64,000 nt of DNA, taken from the NCBI GenBank assembly GCA_024711125.1, contig JANJTM010000034.1, positions 1 through 64,000 on the forward strand. Direction: 5' to 3'. Position 1 is the first letter of the stretch; each line of letters opens with the position of its first letter. Shown one piece after another: positions 1,973 to 11,027 of this stretch. The position numbers and the translations under genes are program-made. Origin of the DNA: Rhodothermales bacterium. Its GTDB lineage: Bacteria > Bacteroidota > Rhodothermia > Rhodothermales > UBA10348. A model generated the notes under the pieces. That model worked only from the letters and a program-made list of their open reading frames with translations. It ran no database searches and had not been told where the DNA came from.

Positions 1973-2386
1973 ATGGCAACCCGAATCCGCCGCGTGCGCT
2001 ACTACCACACGACCGTCCGCGACGAGCCCGGGGAGGCGTACCGGGTGCTGAGCGACCTGGCCGAGCAGGGCGTCGATCTCCTGGCGTTCACCGCCATACC
2101 CGTGGGCCCGACCCTGACCCAGCTCACGCTGTTTCCCGAGCAGGGCGGTCTGCTCGAACATCACGCCACCTACGCCCGCATGCACCTCGACGGGCCGTAC
2201 AGCGCGCTCCTCGTCCAGGGCGTGGACCGCCTTGGAGCCCTTGCCGATGTGCACCGCCAGCTCTACGAGTCCGGCGTGAACGTGTATGCCTCGTCGGCCG
2301 TCGCCGACGGCAACGGAAACTTCGGTTACCTGCTCTACGTGAGGCCCGAACAATTCGAGGCGGCAGCCGAGGCCTTGGGCATCTGA
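1973..2386 (+). CDS. ACT-domain-like amino-acid-binding protein
   Basis: This is a 137-residue protein starting at ATG 1973; the GAGGG a few bases upstream is one of the few Shine-Dalgarno-like sites here. It reads as two ACT-like beta-alpha-beta modules: residues 5-65 (YYHTTVRDEPGEAYRVLSDL) and 75-135 (LLVQGVDRLGALADVHRQL). ACT domains bind amino acids and regulate metabolic enzymes. There is no catalytic or DNA-binding domain. It lies 150 bp upstream of an aminotransferase transcribed in the same direction, so it may sense that enzyme's substrate or product. The open frame extends further upstream but has no plausible protein-like sequence before this ATG. Confidence 0.72.
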   Translation: MATRIRRVRYYHTTVRDEPGEAYRVLSDLAEQGVDLLAFTAIPVGPTLTQLTLFPEQGGLLEHHATYARMHLDGPYSALLVQGVDRLGALADVHRQLYESGVNVYASSAVADGNGNFGYLLYVRPEQFEAAAEALGI

Positions 2387-2536: not shown

Positions 2537-3634
2537 GTGAGCCCTTCGAGCGTCACTCCGCGTGTCGCCATGCCCCTCTTCGTACCCGGATCGTCGGCCG
2601 AAGAGATCGCGGTTCGGTATCGGCTCGAGCGGGTCATCAACCTGTCGAGCAACGAGAGCCCGATGGGGGCGTCGCCGAAGGTGCGGGAGGCCGTGACGGC
2701 CATGGCCGACCGGCTGCACCGATATCCGCACGACGGGGCGCCGCGACTTCGACAGGTCCTGGCCCGGCAACTGGGCGTATGGCCCGAGGAAATCCTGGTC
2801 ACCAACGGATCCACCGAGGCGATCCAGATCCTCGTGGACACGTACGCGATTCCGGGCTGCGAAGCGGTGCTCCCGCAGCATTCGTTCGTGGCCTACGCCC
2901 GGGCCTGCCGCGTCGCCGAGGTGGCCGTCGCCTACGCGGCGATGAAGGACCACGCCATCGACCTGGACGCGGTCGCCGCGGCCATCACCCCGATGACCCG
3001 GTTCGTCTTCCTGGCGAACCCGAACAACCCGACGGGCACCGTGCTCGATCGGCACAAGCTGCGCGATTTCCTGCGCAACCTGCGGTCCAACGTGATCGTG
3101 GTCCTCGACGAGGCCTACCGCGAGTACGCGGGGCACGCCGTCGAGGACGGCTTGACGCTCCGCCTGCACCACCCCCGCATGGTGCTGCTGCGCACGTTTT
3201 CGAAGGTGTACGGTCTCGCCTCGCTGCGCATCGGGTACGCCGTCGGCCCGCCGGACCTCATCGGGCACAAGAACTCGATGCGCGACCCGTTCAATACGAA
3301 CGCGCTGGCCCAGGCCGCGGCCGAGGCGGCCGTGCTCGACCAGGAGTTCATGCACCAGGTCGTGGTATGGAACGCGAAGGCGCGGGGTCAATTGCAGCGC
3401 ATGCTGCGATCGATCGGACTGACACCCGTACCCAGCCGCGCCAATTTCGTGCTGGTTCCGATCGCCCGGCCCGCGGGACCCGTAGTCGAGGCCATGGCCC
3501 GGCGCGGCGTGATGGTCGGCTCGGGCACCTCGTCCGGACTTCCGGAGGCGCTGCGCATCAGTGTCGGCCTGGACGACGAGAACCGCTTTGCGGTCAGGAT
3601 GCTCAAGGAAGTACTCGAAGAGATCAAGCCATGA
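2537..3634 (+). CDS. HisC-like class I/II PLP-dependent aminotransferase
   Basis: This is a fold-type I aminotransferase of the histidinol-phosphate/aromatic aminotransferase group. Visible motifs are VPGSSAEEI, LSSNESPMGASP, FLANPNNPTGT, VLDEAYREYA, the PLP-lysine segment RTFSKVYGLASLRIGY (Lys223 from this start) and the C-terminal LRISVG arginine. I chose the GTG at 2537 because HisC proteins have about 10 residues before the VPG motif; ATG 2570 is the alternative. No other his genes are nearby, so histidine synthesis is not implied. Its stop overlaps the start of the GRAS gene (ATGA at 3631), suggesting that it supplies or modifies an amino-acid-derived small molecule handled by that protein. 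Confidence 0.88.
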   Translation: MSPSSVTPRVAMPLFVPGSSAEEIAVRYRLERVINLSSNESPMGASPKVREAVTAMADRLHRYPHDGAPRLRQVLARQLGVWPEEILVTNGSTEAIQILVDTYAIPGCEAVLPQHSFVAYARACRVAEVAVAYAAMKDHAIDLDAVAAAITPMTRFVFLANPNNPTGTVLDRHKLRDFLRNLRSNVIVVLDEAYREYAGHAVEDGLTLRLHHPRMVLLRTFSKVYGLASLRIGYAVGPPDLIGHKNSMRDPFNTNALAQAAAEAAVLDQEFMHQVVVWNAKARGQLQRMLRSIGLTPVPSRANFVLVPIARPAGPVVEAMARRGVMVGSGTSSGLPEALRISVGLDDENRFAVRMLKEVLEEIKP

Positions 3635-4755
3635 ACGAAGTAGCCCTGCAGGCGTTGGGCCAGGCCGCACGCCACCTGTTTGACGGCCGACGCGAGGAGG
3701 CCCTGCACGTTCTCGACGGGCTGGAGGCCCGCATCGATCCGCGTGGACCCGGTTCCGACCGGCTCGCCTCGAAATTCCTCGCGGCGCTGCGTCGACGCGC
3801 GGGCGACGAGCGGGACGGCACCGGCAACCTGTACGCCGGAACGACCGGTCCGGAGCAGATGCTGGAGGCTTTCGACCTGTTGGTGCGGGCCACTCCGCTC
3901 GTACGATTTGGCTACCGCGCGGCCAACGGAGCCATCCTCGACGCGATCCGTGGCGCCGAGCGCGTGCATATCGTGGACATCGGGATCGGAAGGGGCACGC
4001 AGTGGCCCGACTTCCTCGAGCGGCTGGGCAGGGACGGAGGCCGGGTGCCGTCGGTGTGGCTGACGGGCATCGACATCCCGATGCCGGGCGACGATCCGGA
4101 CCGGGCCCTGCGGGAAGCCGGCCAGATGCTGACCGACGTCGCGGGTTCGCACGGCATCCCCTTCACGTTCGAACCCCTGTCCGGCTTCATCGAGGAGTTC
4201 GACATCGTGCCGGCCCGTCCCGGCGAGGTGCTCATCATCAACGCGGTGCTCGCCCTGCACCACGTTCCGGGCCACGACGTGTCGCTCTGGCCCGAGCGCA
4301 GTCGCCAGACGCTCATCGAGCGGTTGCGCAAGGCCCATCCGCGGCTGCTCGTGCTGGTCGAGCCGGACGCCGAGCACAACGACCTCGAGCTGCCCGAGCG
4401 CACGGCCGAAGCCTGGCGCCACTACGGGCTCGTCTTCGATGTCTTCGACCACCTGTTCGACCGCGATCTGCCGGCCCGCGGGACCCTGGAATCGGCCTTT
4501 TTCGGCCGCGAAGTGGAAAACGTGCTCGTAGGGGAGGGGCTCGACCGCATCGAGCGCCACCAGCGCCGGCTGCGCTGGCAGGAGCAGGCCGCCACGGCGG
4601 GCCTCGTTCCGGTGCCGCTCGGAGGGCTGGCCGAAGACCTCGGCGACATCCTCGGCACGCACCCCGGGTTCTCGCTCGCCGAGGAGGACGGCGCCCTCAT
4701 GCTGTGCTGGAAGGGGGTGCCGATCGTGGGCACGCTGGCGTTCCGGACTCCATGA
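3631..4755 (+). CDS. bacterial GRAS-domain protein, predicted SAM-dependent methyltransferase fold
   Basis: This 374-residue protein matches the plant GRAS architecture along its length. It has VHIVDIGIGRGTQWPDFLERL-like sequence near residue 110 (the VHIID motif), then LTGIDIP and AGQMLTDVAGSHGIPF (leucine-rich region II). LIINAVLALHHV, HPRLLVLVEPDAEHND (VEQEANHN-like) and FFGREVENVLVGEG (RE of PFYRE) follow, then RIERHQRRLRWQ (RVER) and a C-terminal LMLCWKGVPIVGT (SAW-like). Plant members are gibberellin-signalling regulators. Bacterial relatives have been interpreted from their Rossmann methyltransferase fold as small-molecule methylases. Both ends are translationally coupled, to the aminotransferase (ATGA 3631) and to the cytochrome (ATGA 4752). 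The family call is high-confidence; the reaction is unknown. Confidence 0.88.
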   Translation: MNEVALQALGQAARHLFDGRREEALHVLDGLEARIDPRGPGSDRLASKFLAALRRRAGDERDGTGNLYAGTTGPEQMLEAFDLLVRATPLVRFGYRAANGAILDAIRGAERVHIVDIGIGRGTQWPDFLERLGRDGGRVPSVWLTGIDIPMPGDDPDRALREAGQMLTDVAGSHGIPFTFEPLSGFIEEFDIVPARPGEVLIINAVLALHHVPGHDVSLWPERSRQTLIERLRKAHPRLLVLVEPDAEHNDLELPERTAEAWRHYGLVFDVFDHLFDRDLPARGTLESAFFGREVENVLVGEGLDRIERHQRRLRWQEQAATAGLVPVPLGGLAEDLGDILGTHPGFSLAEEDGALMLCWKGVPIVGTLAFRTP

Positions 4756-7031
4756 CGGGGAGTCTCCGGCGCGGAATCGCGGCCGTAGCGATCGTCGCGG
4801 CCACCGCCTGTTCCGACCCCGGGCCGTCGTCCTACGTCGGCTCGGCCGCCTGCGCCTCCTGCCACGCGGCCGAAACGGCGGCATGGCAGGGCTCGCACCA
4901 CGACCTGGCGATGCAGGAGGCCGGCGATTCGACGGTCCTGGGCGACTTCTCGGGCGTCGAATTCGCGTATTTCGGTCGGAAGTCCCGCTTTTTCCGCGAC
5001 GGGCAGCGGTTCCTGGTGCGCACCGAGGACGCCGAGGGCCGCGACCGGGACTTCGAGGTCACGCACACCTTCGGCGTGACGCCGCTGCAGCAGTACCTGG
5101 TCCCGTTCCCGGGCGGCCGGATGCAGGCGCTGCCGGTGGCCTGGGACGCCCGTCCGGCCGAGGTCGGCGGTCAGCGCTGGTATCACCTCTACCCGGAGGA
5201 GCCGATCGTCGCGGGCGATCCGTTGCACTGGACCGGGCCGTTCCAGAACTGGAACACGATGTGCGCGGCCTGCCACTCTACGGGGCTGCGCAAGAACTAC
5301 GATGCCGCGACCGACTCCTTCGCGACCACGTGGAAGGAAATCGACGTCGCGTGCGAGGCCTGCCACGGACCGGGCTCCCGGCACGTGGCGTGGGCCGAGG
5401 CTTCCGATTCGACCCGATGGCCGGCGCGCGGCGCGCTGTCGTCGCGGGATCTGGGTCTCGAGGTTGATCTCGACCGGCCGTCTGAGTTCGTAGTGGACGC
5501 CTCCACCGGTTCGGCGCGCCCGCTGCGCTCGCGGCCGGGCGACCCCCGCATCGACGTCTGCGCCGCGTGCCACAGTCGTCGGTCGGAACGCGTGGACGGC
5601 CCCGCGCCCGGCGCGCCGTACCACGACGCCTTCCGCCTGTCCCGCCTCGACGAGGGCCTGTATTTCGCCGACGGGCAGATCGAGGACGAGGTCTACGTCT
5701 ACGGCTCGTTCCTCCAGAGCCGCATGCACGCCGCCGGGGTCGTGTGCGCCGACTGCCACGACACCCATTCGCTGCGGCTGCGGGCGCCGGGCAACGCGGT
5801 CTGCGCACGCTGCCATCTGCCCGACCGGTTCGACGTGCGCGAGCACCACGGGCACGACCCGGGGCAGGCGGGAGGGCTGTGCGTTTCCTGCCATATGCCT
5901 TCGCGCACCTACATGGGGGTCGATCCCCGCCTGGATCACAGTCTGCGCGTACCTCGGCCGGGTCTCGCGGCCCGCATCGGCGCGCCGGACGTCTGTACCG
6001 GCTGTCACCCGGATCGAGGGCCGGAGTGGGCCGTGCAGGCGGTGCGATCGTGGGGCTACGATGCGGAGTCTCCGCACTACGGCGACGTGATCGCCGCCGG
6101 GAGGGCGGGTCTTCCCGGCGCGGAAGCAGGACTCGCGGCCCTGGCCGCCGATTCTACGGCGTCGGACCTCGTGCGCGCGACCGCGTTCGACCTGCTCGGG
6201 CGGTACCCCGGGCGCACCGCGTTCGATGCCCTCCGGGCCGCGGCGGCGGACCCGTCGATACCCGTCAGGCTCGCGGCGGTCGAGGGGCTGCAGTTCGCCG
6301 ATCTTCCGACCCGGGCCTCCGTGCTGCTGGGGGTGCTCGACGACCCGTCGGATGCCGTGCGCAGTGCCGCGGGGCGCCTGCTCGCGGGCCTGGAGGCGTC
6401 GGCGATCGACGCCAAGACCGCCGCCCGGCTGGACCGGGCCATCGAGTCGTACGTCGCGGCCGAGCTCGCCATGGCCGAGCGGCCCGAAGCGCGCCAGAAT
6501 GTCGCGTTGGTGCGGCAGGCGCAGGGTCGGCTGGACGAGGCGGAAGCGGGGTACCGGGACGCGATCCGCCTCGGGCCGTGGTTCACGCCGGGATACGCCA
6601 ACCTGGCCGATCTGCTTCGCTCACGCGGCGACGCAGCGGGTGCTCAGGCCGTGCTGCGGCAGGGCATCGAGCGTGCCGCCGACCCGGCGCCGCTGCACCA
6701 CGCCCTGGGGCTGCTGCTCGCGCGCGGCGGCCGGTTGCCCGAGGCGATCGATGCCCTGCGGGCGGCCGTGACGGCCGCGCCCGGTCGGGTCGACTTCGCC
6801 TACGTACTCGGCGTCGCGCTCAACGAATCCGGAGACGCCAACGGGGCCCTGGACGTGCTGCGCGAGGCCCACGAACGCTTTCCGCGCGACACGAACCTGC
6901 TGCAGGCGCTCGCGACGATCAGCCGGGACGCCGGCCGCCGCGAGGAGGCGATCCGCTGGGCCGAGCGCCTCGCCGATCTGCTCGGCCCGGGCGGCGGCGC
7001 GCAGGCCTTGCTCTACGAACTGCGGAAATAG
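4752..7031 (+). CDS. octahaem c-type cytochrome lipoprotein with TPR tail
   Basis: This is a 759-residue predicted lipoprotein: a hydrophobic leader ends in AATAC with lipid-accepting Cys20. Eight CXXCH haem sites follow (CASCH, CAACH, CEACH, CAACH, CADCH, CARCH, CVSCH, CTGCH), the first at residue 34. After the haem part comes an alpha-helical HEAT-like stretch (about 460-570), then TPR-like repeats (about 570-750; EAEAGYRDAIRLGPWFTPGYANLADL is split over two helices). The cytochrome half resembles the cytochrome c554/multihaem family; the TPR half suggests docking. It overlaps the GRAS stop by ATGA, so it belongs to that operon although its link to GRAS chemistry is unexplained. It may accept or donate electrons in the periplasm or at the outer membrane. 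Confidence 0.88.
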   Translation: MTGSLRRGIAAVAIVAATACSDPGPSSYVGSAACASCHAAETAAWQGSHHDLAMQEAGDSTVLGDFSGVEFAYFGRKSRFFRDGQRFLVRTEDAEGRDRDFEVTHTFGVTPLQQYLVPFPGGRMQALPVAWDARPAEVGGQRWYHLYPEEPIVAGDPLHWTGPFQNWNTMCAACHSTGLRKNYDAATDSFATTWKEIDVACEACHGPGSRHVAWAEASDSTRWPARGALSSRDLGLEVDLDRPSEFVVDASTGSARPLRSRPGDPRIDVCAACHSRRSERVDGPAPGAPYHDAFRLSRLDEGLYFADGQIEDEVYVYGSFLQSRMHAAGVVCADCHDTHSLRLRAPGNAVCARCHLPDRFDVREHHGHDPGQAGGLCVSCHMPSRTYMGVDPRLDHSLRVPRPGLAARIGAPDVCTGCHPDRGPEWAVQAVRSWGYDAESPHYGDVIAAGRAGLPGAEAGLAALAADSTASDLVRATAFDLLGRYPGRTAFDALRAAAADPSIPVRLAAVEGLQFADLPTRASVLLGVLDDPSDAVRSAAGRLLAGLEASAIDAKTAARLDRAIESYVAAELAMAERPEARQNVALVRQAQGRLDEAEAGYRDAIRLGPWFTPGYANLADLLRSRGDAAGAQAVLRQGIERAADPAPLHHALGLLLARGGRLPEAIDALRAAVTAAPGRVDFAYVLGVALNESGDANGALDVLREAHERFPRDTNLLQALATISRDAGRREEAIRWAERLADLLGPGGGAQALLYELRK
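6991..7019 (+). repeat. direct repeat copy 1 at 3' end of cytochrome gene
   Basis: The last codons of the cytochrome gene (GGCGGCGCGCAGGCCTTGCTC then ACGAAC) are repeated at 7226-7256, and TAGGCTACCG follows both copies (7029-7038 and 7271-7280). This looks like a duplicated gene end that left a decayed fragment in the intergenic space. Confidence 0.7.
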
Positions 7032-7158
7032 GCTACCGTCGTTGCCCGGGACGGTCTCGACATGATCGCTGGAGTCGGGTCGCGCCCGGGAGGCCGTCGG
7101 CTGCGTTAGGGCCGCCGAAGAATGGGAGGTGTCCCGACTTTGCCAGCGAACGGCCCCG

Positions 7159-7188
7159 GAAGTGGAATTTGGGGCGATATTCCACTTC
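7159..7188. terminator. 10-bp perfect inverted repeat, terminator-like hairpin
   Basis: GAAGTGGAAT and ATTCCACTTC pair perfectly around a 10-nt loop between the convergent cytochrome gene (ends 7031) and M1 peptidase gene (ends 7275). It could be a bidirectional transcript end or RNA-stabilising hairpin. There is no following T-run, so intrinsic termination is not proven. Confidence 0.45.
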
Positions 7189-7225
7189 GTCGCCTCCCCA
7201 AACGCCGCGACGAGGGCGTTCGGGC

Positions 7226-7280
7226 AGCGGCGGCGCGCAGGCCTTGCTCGACGAACAGCAGCAGCCCCAGTAGGCTACCG
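7226..7280 (+). repeat. direct repeat copy 2, decayed fragment of cytochrome gene end
   Basis: This is the second copy of the cytochrome 3' terminus, with substitutions and an insertion before the shared TAGGCTACCG. Its end overlaps the last bases of the convergent M1 peptidase gene, whose TAG stop lies in 7275-7277. Confidence 0.65.
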
Positions 7281-9305
7281 CCTCCGACCGCCCCGCTGCG
7301 ACGGGCAGACCCCGGGGTCGCCTTCCACGCGCGGCCAGACGTTGTCGCTCACGTTGCGGTCGGGGAAGCGGCAGCCGGGGTCCCAGACGATGCGTTCGAT
7401 GGCCCGGTCCCCGAAGTCGAGGTCGAAATCCAGCGAGCGGCTACCGCCGAACCAGACGTCGACCGGCCAGGTGAGTACCAGGGAGTTTCCGTCCACGCGC
7501 ACCGTGGCTTCGGCCCCGCCGGGTCCGCGAACGGTGGCGGTCGCGTTTCCGGAAGCGGCGCCCATCTCGATGCGCACCACCACGGGCGAGGGCATCTCGC
7601 CGTCCTGCCGCACCGTGAACCGGGCCTTGCCGCCGTCGATGGAGGCCTCGGCGATCGACCCGTCCACGCGTTCGGTGGTCCAGAGCCAGTAGTACCAGAA
7701 CCAGCCGAGGTCGGCGCCGAGCCCACGCTGCATGAAGTGCGCGTAGTCCCACGGTGACGGGTGCTTGAAGGCCCACGCGTGGGTGTAGTCGCTCATCACC
7801 TTTTGCACGGCATCGTCCCCGAAGATTCCGCCCAGCATCGAGAGCATGAGCGGGGCCTTCTGGTACGTCTGGAAACCGTACAGGGGGCCGCCGAAATTGG
7901 CGTTCCACATCATCGGCGGCTCCCACTCGTCGCCCGAAATCATGCCGTACATGAGCCCCTGGCCGTCCAGCACGGCGGGCTCGCCGCGCGAATCGGCGCC
8001 CGAGAGGATGTTCATGTACGTGTTGAAGCCCTCGTCCATCCACCCGTACCAGGTCTCGTTCGTTCCGACCATCATGGGCCACCACTGGTGCGCCGTTTCA
8101 TGGTCGGCCGCGCCCTGGTTCGAGTTGATGACCATCGGGTACTCCATGCCGGCGCTCGGACCGTCCTGGAGCGTGAGCTGCGGGAACGGGTAGGGGGCCC
8201 AGAGGGCGGAATAGAACTCCAGCGCGTGCCGCGTGCGTGTACCGGCTTCGGCGAAGAAGGGCGCCCGCTCGGGCAGGTACACCATGTGGATCGGGACCGG
8301 TCCCTTGGTCGGAATCGTCGCCCGGGTCGCGCGCCACAGGAAGTCCCGCGAGGTTGCCCACGCGAAATCGTTGACCTTGTCGGCCTTGAAGTGCCACGTC
8401 AGGCTGGTGCCGGGGGCGGTCTTGGGTTCACCCTCGCCCACGATCATGATCTCTTCGTCGCTGGCGGTCACCCGGGCGAGGCGCTCGCGGGCGGTCGCCG
8501 TGAGCACTTCGTCCGGGTTCTGCAGGACGCCCGTTCCGCTCACGATCCAGCCTCCGGGCACGTCGATCTTCACGTCGAAGCGCCCGAAGTTGTTGTAGAA
8601 CTCGGAAGGGCCGAGGTAGGGATTCGTGTCCCATCCGCGCAGGTCGTCGAGCTTGGCGAGCCGCGGAAACCACTGGGTGGGCTGGAAGAGCCGGTCCTCC
8701 CAGCGCTGCGTCATGCGGTGGCCCTGTCCGTTGGGGCCGCCGGGCAGCTTGGTATGCCAGTCGATCTCGAGCGTGGCCGTCGAGTTCGGCGGGATCGGCG
8801 CGTCGAGTGACAGCGTCGCGACGGTCGACTGCAGCCCGCTCACGCCGAACCACGGGGTCGGGGGCTGGTCGAATCGCCGCACGGGCGGCCGCGCGAAGAG
8901 GTCCACCTCGCGCCCGTCGAGCGCCATGCGCGTCACGACCATGCCCTCGGTCTCCTCGGCCGGGACCGAGAATCCGCGCGGCACGTCGTCCCGGAAGATG
9001 TTGTGGTCGAGGCGCAGCACGATCCGGTCGAGCGGGCTGGGGCTGTTGTTGCGGATCGTGATGCGTTCCGACCCCGAAATCACCTGCGTCGCGGGGTTGA
9101 GGCTGGCCTCGATCTCGAAGTCGGTCTCGAGCTGCCAGTAGTTCGGTCCCGGTGTACCCGTTGCGTCGCGCGTCCCGGCGTCGAACGCCCGCTGGATCGC
9201 GTTCGTCATCGGAATCGTGCGACGAATGCCCCGTTCGGGGGCGTCCTGGGCGGCCGCGGCGGGTGTGAGCAGCAGGGCGAAGAGGAAAACGGGCAGGAAG
9301 CGCAT
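7275..9305 (-). CDS. M1 family zinc metallopeptidase, exported
   Basis: This 676-residue protein starts at an ATG that opens a clear signal peptide (MRFLPVFLFALLLTPAAAAQ). The substrate-anchoring motif is present as GMEYP, and the zinc site is HETAHQWW at residues 402-409, with the third ligand Glu in WMDEGFNTY. That is the HEXXH-X18-E pattern of gluzincin aminopeptidases. A C-terminal beta domain follows. It should trim peptides from the N-terminus in the periplasm or on the surface. Two further M1 genes and two transporters follow on the same strand, consistent with peptide scavenging. Confidence 0.93.
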   Translation of the reverse strand: MRFLPVFLFALLLTPAAAAQDAPERGIRRTIPMTNAIQRAFDAGTRDATGTPGPNYWQLETDFEIEASLNPATQVISGSERITIRNNSPSPLDRIVLRLDHNIFRDDVPRGFSVPAEETEGMVVTRMALDGREVDLFARPPVRRFDQPPTPWFGVSGLQSTVATLSLDAPIPPNSTATLEIDWHTKLPGGPNGQGHRMTQRWEDRLFQPTQWFPRLAKLDDLRGWDTNPYLGPSEFYNNFGRFDVKIDVPGGWIVSGTGVLQNPDEVLTATARERLARVTASDEEIMIVGEGEPKTAPGTSLTWHFKADKVNDFAWATSRDFLWRATRATIPTKGPVPIHMVYLPERAPFFAEAGTRTRHALEFYSALWAPYPFPQLTLQDGPSAGMEYPMVINSNQGAADHETAHQWWPMMVGTNETWYGWMDEGFNTYMNILSGADSRGEPAVLDGQGLMYGMISGDEWEPPMMWNANFGGPLYGFQTYQKAPLMLSMLGGIFGDDAVQKVMSDYTHAWAFKHPSPWDYAHFMQRGLGADLGWFWYYWLWTTERVDGSIAEASIDGGKARFTVRQDGEMPSPVVVRIEMGAASGNATATVRGPGGAEATVRVDGNSLVLTWPVDVWFGGSRSLDFDLDFGDRAIERIVWDPGCRFPDRNVSDNVWPRVEGDPGVCPSQRGGRRR

Positions 9306-9392
9306 GGCGGTGCGGGTCGGGTTCGGCGGAAACGACCGACGGTACGGAACCCAGGGACGCGGGGATTCACGAAAGTGTGACAATCGCGGGGC

Positions 9393-11027
9393 TCAGCGGC
9401 GCTCGAACGTCCACTCGGCCAGCAGCACCGTGCGGGGGTCGATCTCGACGCGGTCGGGCGGGCCCTCGAGATTGATCGTGAGCGAGCGGCGGCCCGTTCC
9501 GTCGAGCCGCAGGGTGTGGATCGTGGGCACTTCCGACCCGTTCTCGTAAACCCCGATCTCGACGGGCAGGTCGAAGGAGTAGCCGTCCTTCTGCACCTGC
9601 TCGAGGTCGACGATGAGCTTCGAGTCGCCCTCGAAGCGCCACGATCCGTCGAGCACGGGGTGTCCGCCCTGGCGCAGCCACTGGTCGAAGAAGGCGCCGA
9701 GCGTGTCCCCCGAGGCGGTCTCCATGTGCCGCACGAGGTCCTCGGTGAGCGCGAAGTCGTTGAAGTGCTCGGTGTAGTACGCGCGGATGCCCGCCTGGAA
9801 GGCCTTGTCCCCGATGCGGTTGCGCAGCATGTGCATGAACCAGGCGCCCTTCTGGTACGTATGGCTCGAGGTCACCTTCGACATGTCGGCCAGGTTGGCG
9901 TGGATGACCGTGTAGTCCGGGTTGTCCTGGTGGAAGCGCCAGATCGTGCGGCGTGCGCCCTTGAGCCCGTCCACGAAATCACCCCGTCCGTAAGCGTACT
10001 CGCGGAAGAGCAGCGTGAAGTACGTCGTGATGCCCTCGCTCAGCCAGACGTGGTCCCAGTTGGCCTCGGTAACCGAGCATCCGAACCACTGGTGGGCGAT
10101 CTCGTGGATGATGACGTTGCGCCAGCGCGTGTTGCCGTCCCCGACGACCGAGTTCTCGGCATAGAAGATGGCCGAGGAGGCCTCCATGCCGCCGCCCACG
10201 CTGTTCGCCTGGATGTTCGCGAGCTTCTCGTACGCGAACGGCCCGACGTAGTCCTCGAAGAACTCGAGCGAGCGCTTGGTGGGGCCGTCGAGGTCCAGGA
10301 ATCCGGCCTCACGGTCCTCGGGGAAGACCCAGACCTGGATTTCCTTTCCGCGGAAATCGCCCACGCGGGCCATCGCCATTTCGGCGACGCCCAGGCAGTA
10401 GAGCCACGGCGAGGTGGGCACGGACTGCTTCCAATGGGTGCGCCGGCGATTCCCCCCGAGGTCGGTTTCTTCCAGGCGCAGCCCGTTCGAAACGACCTGG
10501 TACTTCGACGGGGCGTCGATGATGAACTCGTGCGTGGCCTTGTCGCCGATGTGGTCGACGGTCGGAAGCCAATGGTGCGTCCGGTTGGGCCAGTTGTCGC
10601 TGAAAAAAGTGCGCTTGCCGTGCCGGTTCTCGCGGATGAAGAGGCCGTTGTCGGGGATGCCGGTGTAATCGACGAGGATCTGGACCGTGCTGCCGGCATG
10701 GCTTCCGGGCGGAAGGGCAAACGTCAGGGCGTCGTTCTCGTGCACGAACCGTGTCGGGGTGCCGTTGGCGAGGACCTGGCGCACGTGCATGCCGCGTCCG
10801 CCGCGCTCGTCGGTCGGGCTGACGAGATCTAGCCGCATCTCGCTCACGCCGTCCTGGACCACGCGCACGATGACGACGGCGTGTCCGGAGATCTCGTTCG
10901 ACTGGTCGCCGAGTTCGAGCTGGAAGCGGTAGTGCTGCACGTCGATCCCTTTCTGGACGGGATATGGGTCGGCGGCGACAGGCAGGACGAGCAGCGCGGC
11001 GAGAAGCAGGGCGATCGGTCGGGTCAT
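9393..11027 (-). CDS. M1 family aminopeptidase, exported
   Basis: This is a 544-residue M1 peptidase with signal peptide MTRPIALLLAALLVLPVAA. It has GGGMEASS (GxMEN-type exopeptidase motif) and HEIAHQWFG at residues 308-316, with the third zinc ligand in WLSEGITTY. The catalytic region is typical of the leukotriene-A4-hydrolase/aminopeptidase N clan. Length fits the compact bacterial forms that lack a long C-terminal helical domain. It lies 87 bp from the preceding M1 gene on the same strand but is clearly diverged from it, so the pair is not a recent tandem duplicate. Confidence 0.93.
   Translation of the reverse strand: MTRPIALLLAALLVLPVAADPYPVQKGIDVQHYRFQLELGDQSNEISGHAVVIVRVVQDGVSEMRLDLVSPTDERGGRGMHVRQVLANGTPTRFVHENDALTFALPPGSHAGSTVQILVDYTGIPDNGLFIRENRHGKRTFFSDNWPNRTHHWLPTVDHIGDKATHEFIIDAPSKYQVVSNGLRLEETDLGGNRRRTHWKQSVPTSPWLYCLGVAEMAMARVGDFRGKEIQVWVFPEDREAGFLDLDGPTKRSLEFFEDYVGPFAYEKLANIQANSVGGGMEASSAIFYAENSVVGDGNTRWRNVIIHEIAHQWFGCSVTEANWDHVWLSEGITTYFTLLFREYAYGRGDFVDGLKGARRTIWRFHQDNPDYTVIHANLADMSKVTSSHTYQKGAWFMHMLRNRIGDKAFQAGIRAYYTEHFNDFALTEDLVRHMETASGDTLGAFFDQWLRQGGHPVLDGSWRFEGDSKLIVDLEQVQKDGYSFDLPVEIGVYENGSEVPTIHTLRLDGTGRRSLTINLEGPPDRVEIDPRTVLLAEWTFERR

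Follow-up and report, generated by a model that had tools for sequence, protein, structure and literature searches.

Introduction

GRAS proteins control the gibberellin response, root patterning, and symbiosis of plants. The family is held to have moved from soil bacteria into the algal ancestor from which land plants descend (PMC9942845), and another article cites an origin from a bacterial methylase (PMC6232258). According to a review, one subgroup of bacterial GRAS proteins is monophyletic with the plant proteins and has motifs in common with them (PMC12448838). The protein analyzed here, encoded in a 64,000-nucleotide stretch of DNA from a Rhodothermales bacterium (hereafter the window), is a further bacterial GRAS protein; bacterial members, the methyltransferase ancestry of the family, and the plant-related bacterial subgroup have all been published previously. 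To our knowledge, no activity has been assigned to any bacterial GRAS protein. In a 2012 article, Zhang et al. reportedly proposed gibberellin-like ligands for the family.

Among methyltransferases outside the GRAS family, EgtD is a histidine N-methyltransferase and SgvM a keto-leucine C-methyltransferase, the substrate of each being an amino acid or the corresponding keto acid. SgvM, MppJ, and MrsA work together with aminotransferases. C-methylation of keto acids by these three enzymes has been described (PMC10502145).

Identification of the GRAS protein

The open reading frame at 3631-4755 had been assigned to the GRAS family in the original prediction; the frame lies at exactly these coordinates, and a Pfam profile search bore the assignment out: PF03514 (GRAS) matched with an E-value of 2e-70 and 238 bits (cut-off 27), covering residues 7-368 and profile positions 3-370 of 374. 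No methyltransferase family scored better. The Pfam scan returned GRAS, one chance-level family, and nothing more, which rules out membership in another methyltransferase family; such families gave no match in Pfam at E<=1 or in NCBIfam at E<=0.01. A single-sequence search of the PDB found solely plant GRAS proteins, led by DELLA1 (2e-38), SCL7 (1e-32), and RGA (6e-31) and followed by SCL3, SCR, SHR, NSP2, and NSP1. The genome itself (3.8 Mb, 99% complete) has one GRAS gene, the single match of a genome-wide profile search, and 14 control genomes gave no match. Judged by its relatives and its gene content, the genome is probably that of a high-GC member of the Bacteroidota. Both the GRAS match and the motif set are far above chance. 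Contamination with plant DNA was ruled out by the GC content, which is unremarkable in the GRAS gene relative to its surroundings and even across the region (0.68-0.71), by bacterial genes that overlap it on both sides, and by a Myxococcota homolog (L002) with an identical gene overlap.

Table 1. Positions of genes and putative functional motifs at the GRAS locus of the window
Feature	Coordinates	Strand	Basis or details
Small ACT-like protein, upstream of the aminotransferase	1973..2386	+	ACT 24.2 bits, just under the cut-off of 27
HisC-like PLP-dependent aminotransferase, 354 aa, translationally coupled to GRAS	2570..3634	+	TIGR01141, Aminotran_1_2
GRAS-domain protein, putative SAM-dependent small-molecule methyltransferase	3631..4755	+	374 aa; PF03514, plant GRAS PDB chains, SAM residues
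Motif I / VHIID equivalent, aa 111-125, RVHIVDIGIGRGTQW	3961..4005	+	Glycines G118, G120, G122
End of beta-2, aa 146-150, GIDIP	4066..4080	+	Acidic D148
Beta-4 motif, aa 204-211, NAVLALHH	4240..4263	+	N204, H210, H211
Multihaem cytochrome c / HEAT / TPR lipoprotein-like gene	4752..7031	+	8 CXXCH motifs, Pfam; ATGA 4752-4755 overlaps the GRAS stop

Motifs and residues of the putative SAM-binding site

Motifs were compared in an alignment of 42 bacterial GRAS proteins with five plant GRAS proteins of solved structure. A nearly complete plant-type motif set in order (VHIID, leucine-rich II, PFYRE, RVER, and SAW) had been predicted, and the column-by-column alignment to the five plant proteins agrees: the VHIID-equivalent segment lies at residues 112-125 (VHIVDIGIGRGTQW) and is followed by N204...LHH (residues 209-211), VEPDAEH...RTAEAWRHYGLVFD (residues 243-270), FFGREVENV...DRIERH (residues 290-310), and LCWKGVPIVGTLAF (residues 358-371).

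The VHIID-equivalent segment is an intact SAM-binding motif I of the form D-x-G-x-G-x-G, which has been lost in the plant proteins compared; its three glycines are invariant in all 42 bacterial proteins and occur together in none of the five plant proteins. Position 148 is occupied by D in the window branch, by an acidic residue, D or E, in the remaining bacterial sequences displayed, and by G, P, or V in the five plant proteins; D148 would be expected to hold the SAM ribose. Both signs of a class I SAM-dependent methyltransferase, the GxGxG of motif I and the acidic residue ending beta-2, are therefore present in the window protein, and the loss of SAM-binding residues that characterizes plant-type regulators is absent from it. 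N204, H210, and H211 are candidate catalytic or substrate residues. H211 is found in 41 of the 42 bacterial proteins and corresponds to T, K, H, S, or G in plants (replaced in four of five); E244 is kept by every bacterial and plant protein aligned. As judged from the alignment, bacterial GRAS proteins carry the residues needed by a SAM-dependent methyltransferase and the compared plant proteins do not, which supports the published view of a methyltransferase ancestry.

The likeness to plant GRAS proteins (DELLA/RGA, SCR, SHR, SCL3, and SCL7) is one of whole-domain homology extending over every motif block, with E-values down to 2e-38. The window protein differs from them in retaining GxGxG, D148, and H211, which the plant proteins have lost wholly or mostly, in having no N-terminal regulatory region, and in being encoded in an enzyme operon.

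The aminotransferase partner

The stop codon of the aminotransferase gene and the start codon of the GRAS gene overlap in an ATGA at 3631-3634, as read directly from the DNA. The aminotransferase matched Aminotran_1_2 (E-value 3e-54) and passed the HisC equivalog cut-off of TIGR01141 (290.8 bits against 276.55), and its catalytic residues Lys212, Asp180, Tyr183, and Arg220 are present. With 4r2n, a phenylalanine aminotransferase, and 3ffh, a HisC, matched in the PDB at an E-value of about 1e-53, it shares the family and the PLP residues; it differs from them in being additional to the HisC that the genome already has, and in having Gly317 in place of an arginine of the C-terminal active-site segment. 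The same arginine, which we take to be the second substrate-binding arginine of E. coli HisC, is missing from 10 of the 13 partner aminotransferases, the window's among them, and is retained by the HisC and phenylalanine aminotransferase references.

The same genome has a second HisC, L080, which shows 52-59% identity to HisC proteins from nine relatives within the family; for the window copy, the identity to these proteins is about 30%. L080 is the ordinary HisC; the window partner was ruled out as the histidine HisC of the genome and is, on these identities, not the orthologue of the HisC of its lineage. In five further genomes (G612, G799, G833, G856, and G865), a separate HisC gene is found next to hisD or close to it and not at the GRAS locus; in G212, hisD was not detected, yet the GRAS partner aminotransferase is kept.

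The neighborhoods of 38 GRAS regions (37 fetched, one repeating L002) were surveyed with genes called by a codon-usage script and neighbors grouped. An aminotransferase of the HisC group adjoins GRAS in 12 of them, from two phyla, always on the same strand and at a distance of -19 to +188 bp. The aminotransferase gene comes first in the window and in L002, where the two genes likewise overlap by four bases, and the GRAS gene comes first in L044 and in nine regions of the window's phylum; in a thirteenth region, L045, the aminotransferase lies downstream of GRAS with four genes between. On the tree, this distribution needs at least three changes. The partners fall into at least two well-supported separate clades, which means either repeated recruitment or wide divergence. 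No report of a GRAS-aminotransferase neighborhood was found in the literature searched, outside which lies the 2012 article of Zhang, Iyer, and Aravind; as far as that literature goes, the recurrent partner has not been described before.

Phylogenetic position and distribution

The unrooted tree comprised the 42 bacterial and five plant GRAS proteins, the former from two phyla and two plasmids, so that any statement of nearness to plants is relative to this sample. The window protein, L002, and L044 formed a group with the plant proteins to the exclusion of the 39 other bacterial sequences (support 100/99), and the same split was obtained without five long branches (99/97). Inside this group, support was low (65/34), and the plants may be sister to L044 or to the three bacterial proteins together. 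QW after motif I and TG before the end of beta-2, preceded by L or I, are found in the window branch and in most plant proteins; the QW and LTG signatures are absent from the other bacterial sequences displayed. Within this sample, the window branch is, as the tree places it, the bacterial branch nearest plants, which explains why the plant-type motif set is nearly complete. The grouping and the common marks agree with the published plant-related bacterial subgroup. Other bacterial GRAS proteins, from Myxococcota, the window's phylum, and Skermanella plasmids, belong to the same family, have invariant SAM residues, and in several cases have an aminotransferase neighbor; they are, except for L002 (63% identity) and L044 (43%), more distant from the window protein (about 25-37%) and stand on the other side of the 100/99 split.

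The original description of bacterial GRAS proteins as rare holds for the window's own order, in which the other 113 genomes searched had none (1/114 overall), but not elsewhere, where the distribution is patchy: GRAS was found in 3/394 genomes of the phylum sample, in 19/150 of one family of that phylum, and in 17/379 of the Myxococcota sample. This patchy spread, together with a nearest relative (L002) in a Myxococcota assembly, points to horizontal transfer, and these data indicate that the GRAS-aminotransferase pair was probably acquired in this way.

Structural model

An AlphaFold2 model of the window GRAS protein, built from two sequences, is weak (pLDDT 59, pTM 0.45). Foldseek with this model ranked 12 plant GRAS chains first, at an rmsd above 11. 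The best non-GRAS matches were EgtD, with a Z of 10.0 (147 residues superposed at 3.5 A), and SgvM, with a Z of 8.8 (150 residues at 3.6 A); since the model is poor, and a Z near 8 can reflect a common arrangement, we treat both as hints. The remaining fold matches lie close together in score and were not relied on. EgtD resembles the window protein as the best non-GRAS fold match and in its amino-acid substrate, but the window protein is of a different sequence family, with no Pfam match to that of EgtD. SgvM, MppJ, and MrsA likewise belong to a different methyltransferase sequence family in Pfam, and the likeness to them is one of proposed logic, namely the methylation of a keto acid made or re-aminated by an aminotransferase.

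Proposed function

We propose that the window GRAS protein is an active SAM-dependent small-molecule methyltransferase that works together with a dedicated aminotransferase of HisC type, the two being encoded as a unit, and acts on an amino acid or keto acid, the pair having been acquired horizontally and belonging to the branch nearest plant GRAS proteins; we put the probability of this reading at about 0.62. The reaction of bacterial GRAS proteins, which the original prediction had called undetermined, is narrowed, but not fixed, by the coupled aminotransferase. We infer catalysis, a substrate common to both enzymes, and a type of methylation as follows. The aminotransferase would convert an amino acid (or a similar amino compound) into its keto form or back again, and one of these two would receive a methyl group from SAM through the GRAS enzyme. 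The closest logic would be the keto-acid methylation of SgvM, MppJ, and MrsA, with amino-acid N-methylation of the EgtD type as the runner-up. In the plant regulators, the fold has been kept and the SAM site lost. Against a paired enzyme speak the many bacterial GRAS genes that have no adjoining aminotransferase and the TIGR01141 score of the partner.

Because most Myxococcota GRAS genes share an operon with genes for a SpoIIE-type PP2C phosphatase, a DUF6272/SiaB-like (slr1658-like) protein, an slr1659-like protein, and a 179-residue protein, the chief rival is a SAM- or ligand-binding regulator that has lost catalysis, senses a small molecule such as SAM, SAH, or an amino-acid product, and controls partner proteins. 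The Myxococcota operon looks like a partner-switching-type module, regulatory in appearance, and the plant relatives are themselves regulators. Nevertheless, a regulator seems unlikely at the window locus, where such regulatory genes are absent and the coupled partner is an enzyme, and the conservation of the SAM-binding residues and H211 across bacteria is what catalysis would predict. The two settings are tied together by L045, which has both the phosphatase operon and the aminotransferase.

Two other explanations leave the aminotransferase a smaller part or none. The GRAS protein could be a SABATH-like carboxylic acid O-methyltransferase, comparable to salicylate and gibberellin methyltransferases, with the role of the aminotransferase limited to an earlier step that provides a precursor. 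A SABATH enzyme, xanthosine methyltransferase, occurs among the non-GRAS structures matched by the weak model (Z 8.2), and the gibberellin-like ligands reportedly suggested for GRAS proteins in the earlier proposal would fit, yet no terpenoid genes were recognized adjoining the pair and the recurring partner is an aminotransferase, which makes this explanation improbable. Least probable is that the aminotransferase is an extra HisC placed next to GRAS by chance or shared transfer, with no functional link. Its score above the HisC equivalog cut-off and the occurrence of the pair in only about three independent branches would suit such a coincidence; however, the pair is found in both orders, always on the same strand, and in two phyla, the rough chance of finding it in three of ten lineages being about 4e-7 for genomes assumed to carry 4000 genes each, with six of the HisC type, and, in addition, the genomes have another HisC and most partners have lost the active-site arginine of the HisC references.

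Returning to the paired methyltransferase, it is conceivable, although the odds are against it, that the GRAS-aminotransferase pair represents a metabolic module ancestral to the plant GRAS regulators, the methyltransferase half of which would have entered the algal ancestor, lost SAM binding, and kept the binding of ligands or partners. If so, no living enzyme form would stand closer to DELLA and SCARECROW than the window branch. From the pairing with an aminotransferase in separate branches, including the one nearest plants, the class of substrate can be guessed in concrete, testable terms, and the role of the ancestral GRAS enzyme thereby becomes a question for the bench.

Other genes at the locus and in related regions

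The multihaem cytochrome c-like gene downstream of GRAS is probably co-translated with it, but the neighborhood comparison found it not to be conserved with the GRAS-aminotransferase pair. Proteins with at least two CXXCH motifs flank the pair in the window (4752-7031) and in L002 (7678-8940 and 713-5809) and in none of the other regions; as these proteins differ between the two, their presence may be due to chance. The ACT-like gene is missing beside the pair in L002, and its link to the pair is uncertain. Two neighboring M1-type peptidase genes lie on the minus strand of the window at 7275-11027, and no Rfam families were found in the window. In L002, repeated DNA directly 3' of the GRAS gene (7130-7540) has translated frames composed of RDRSTVVG-like units.

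The operon order GRAS, 179-residue protein, SpoIIE PP2C, DUF6272/SiaB-like protein, and slr1659-like protein was observed in L045, L047-L054, L057, and L058 (e.g., L052, 7233-10801). The 179-residue protein encoded directly 3' of GRAS (L045, 6404-6940, and homologues) is 48-70% identical across operon members and gave no Pfam or credible PDB match. Two of these clusters contain a second, divergent GRAS gene (L048, 11807-13321; L049, 11694-13298), with a C-terminal extension of ~150 residues that appears TerB-like by eye.

In seven regions with GRAS and no aminotransferase (L061, L062, L065, L066, L068, L070, and L071), a phosphotriesterase-like protein is encoded directly downstream in all; it is possibly another GRAS partner, but the genomes are closely related and the arrangement may therefore reflect simple descent. 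On two Skermanella plasmids, GRAS genes (L096, 7617-8735; L097, 3476-4594) lie beside genes for a PAS-domain protein and a response regulator, and GRAS can therefore be plasmid-borne.
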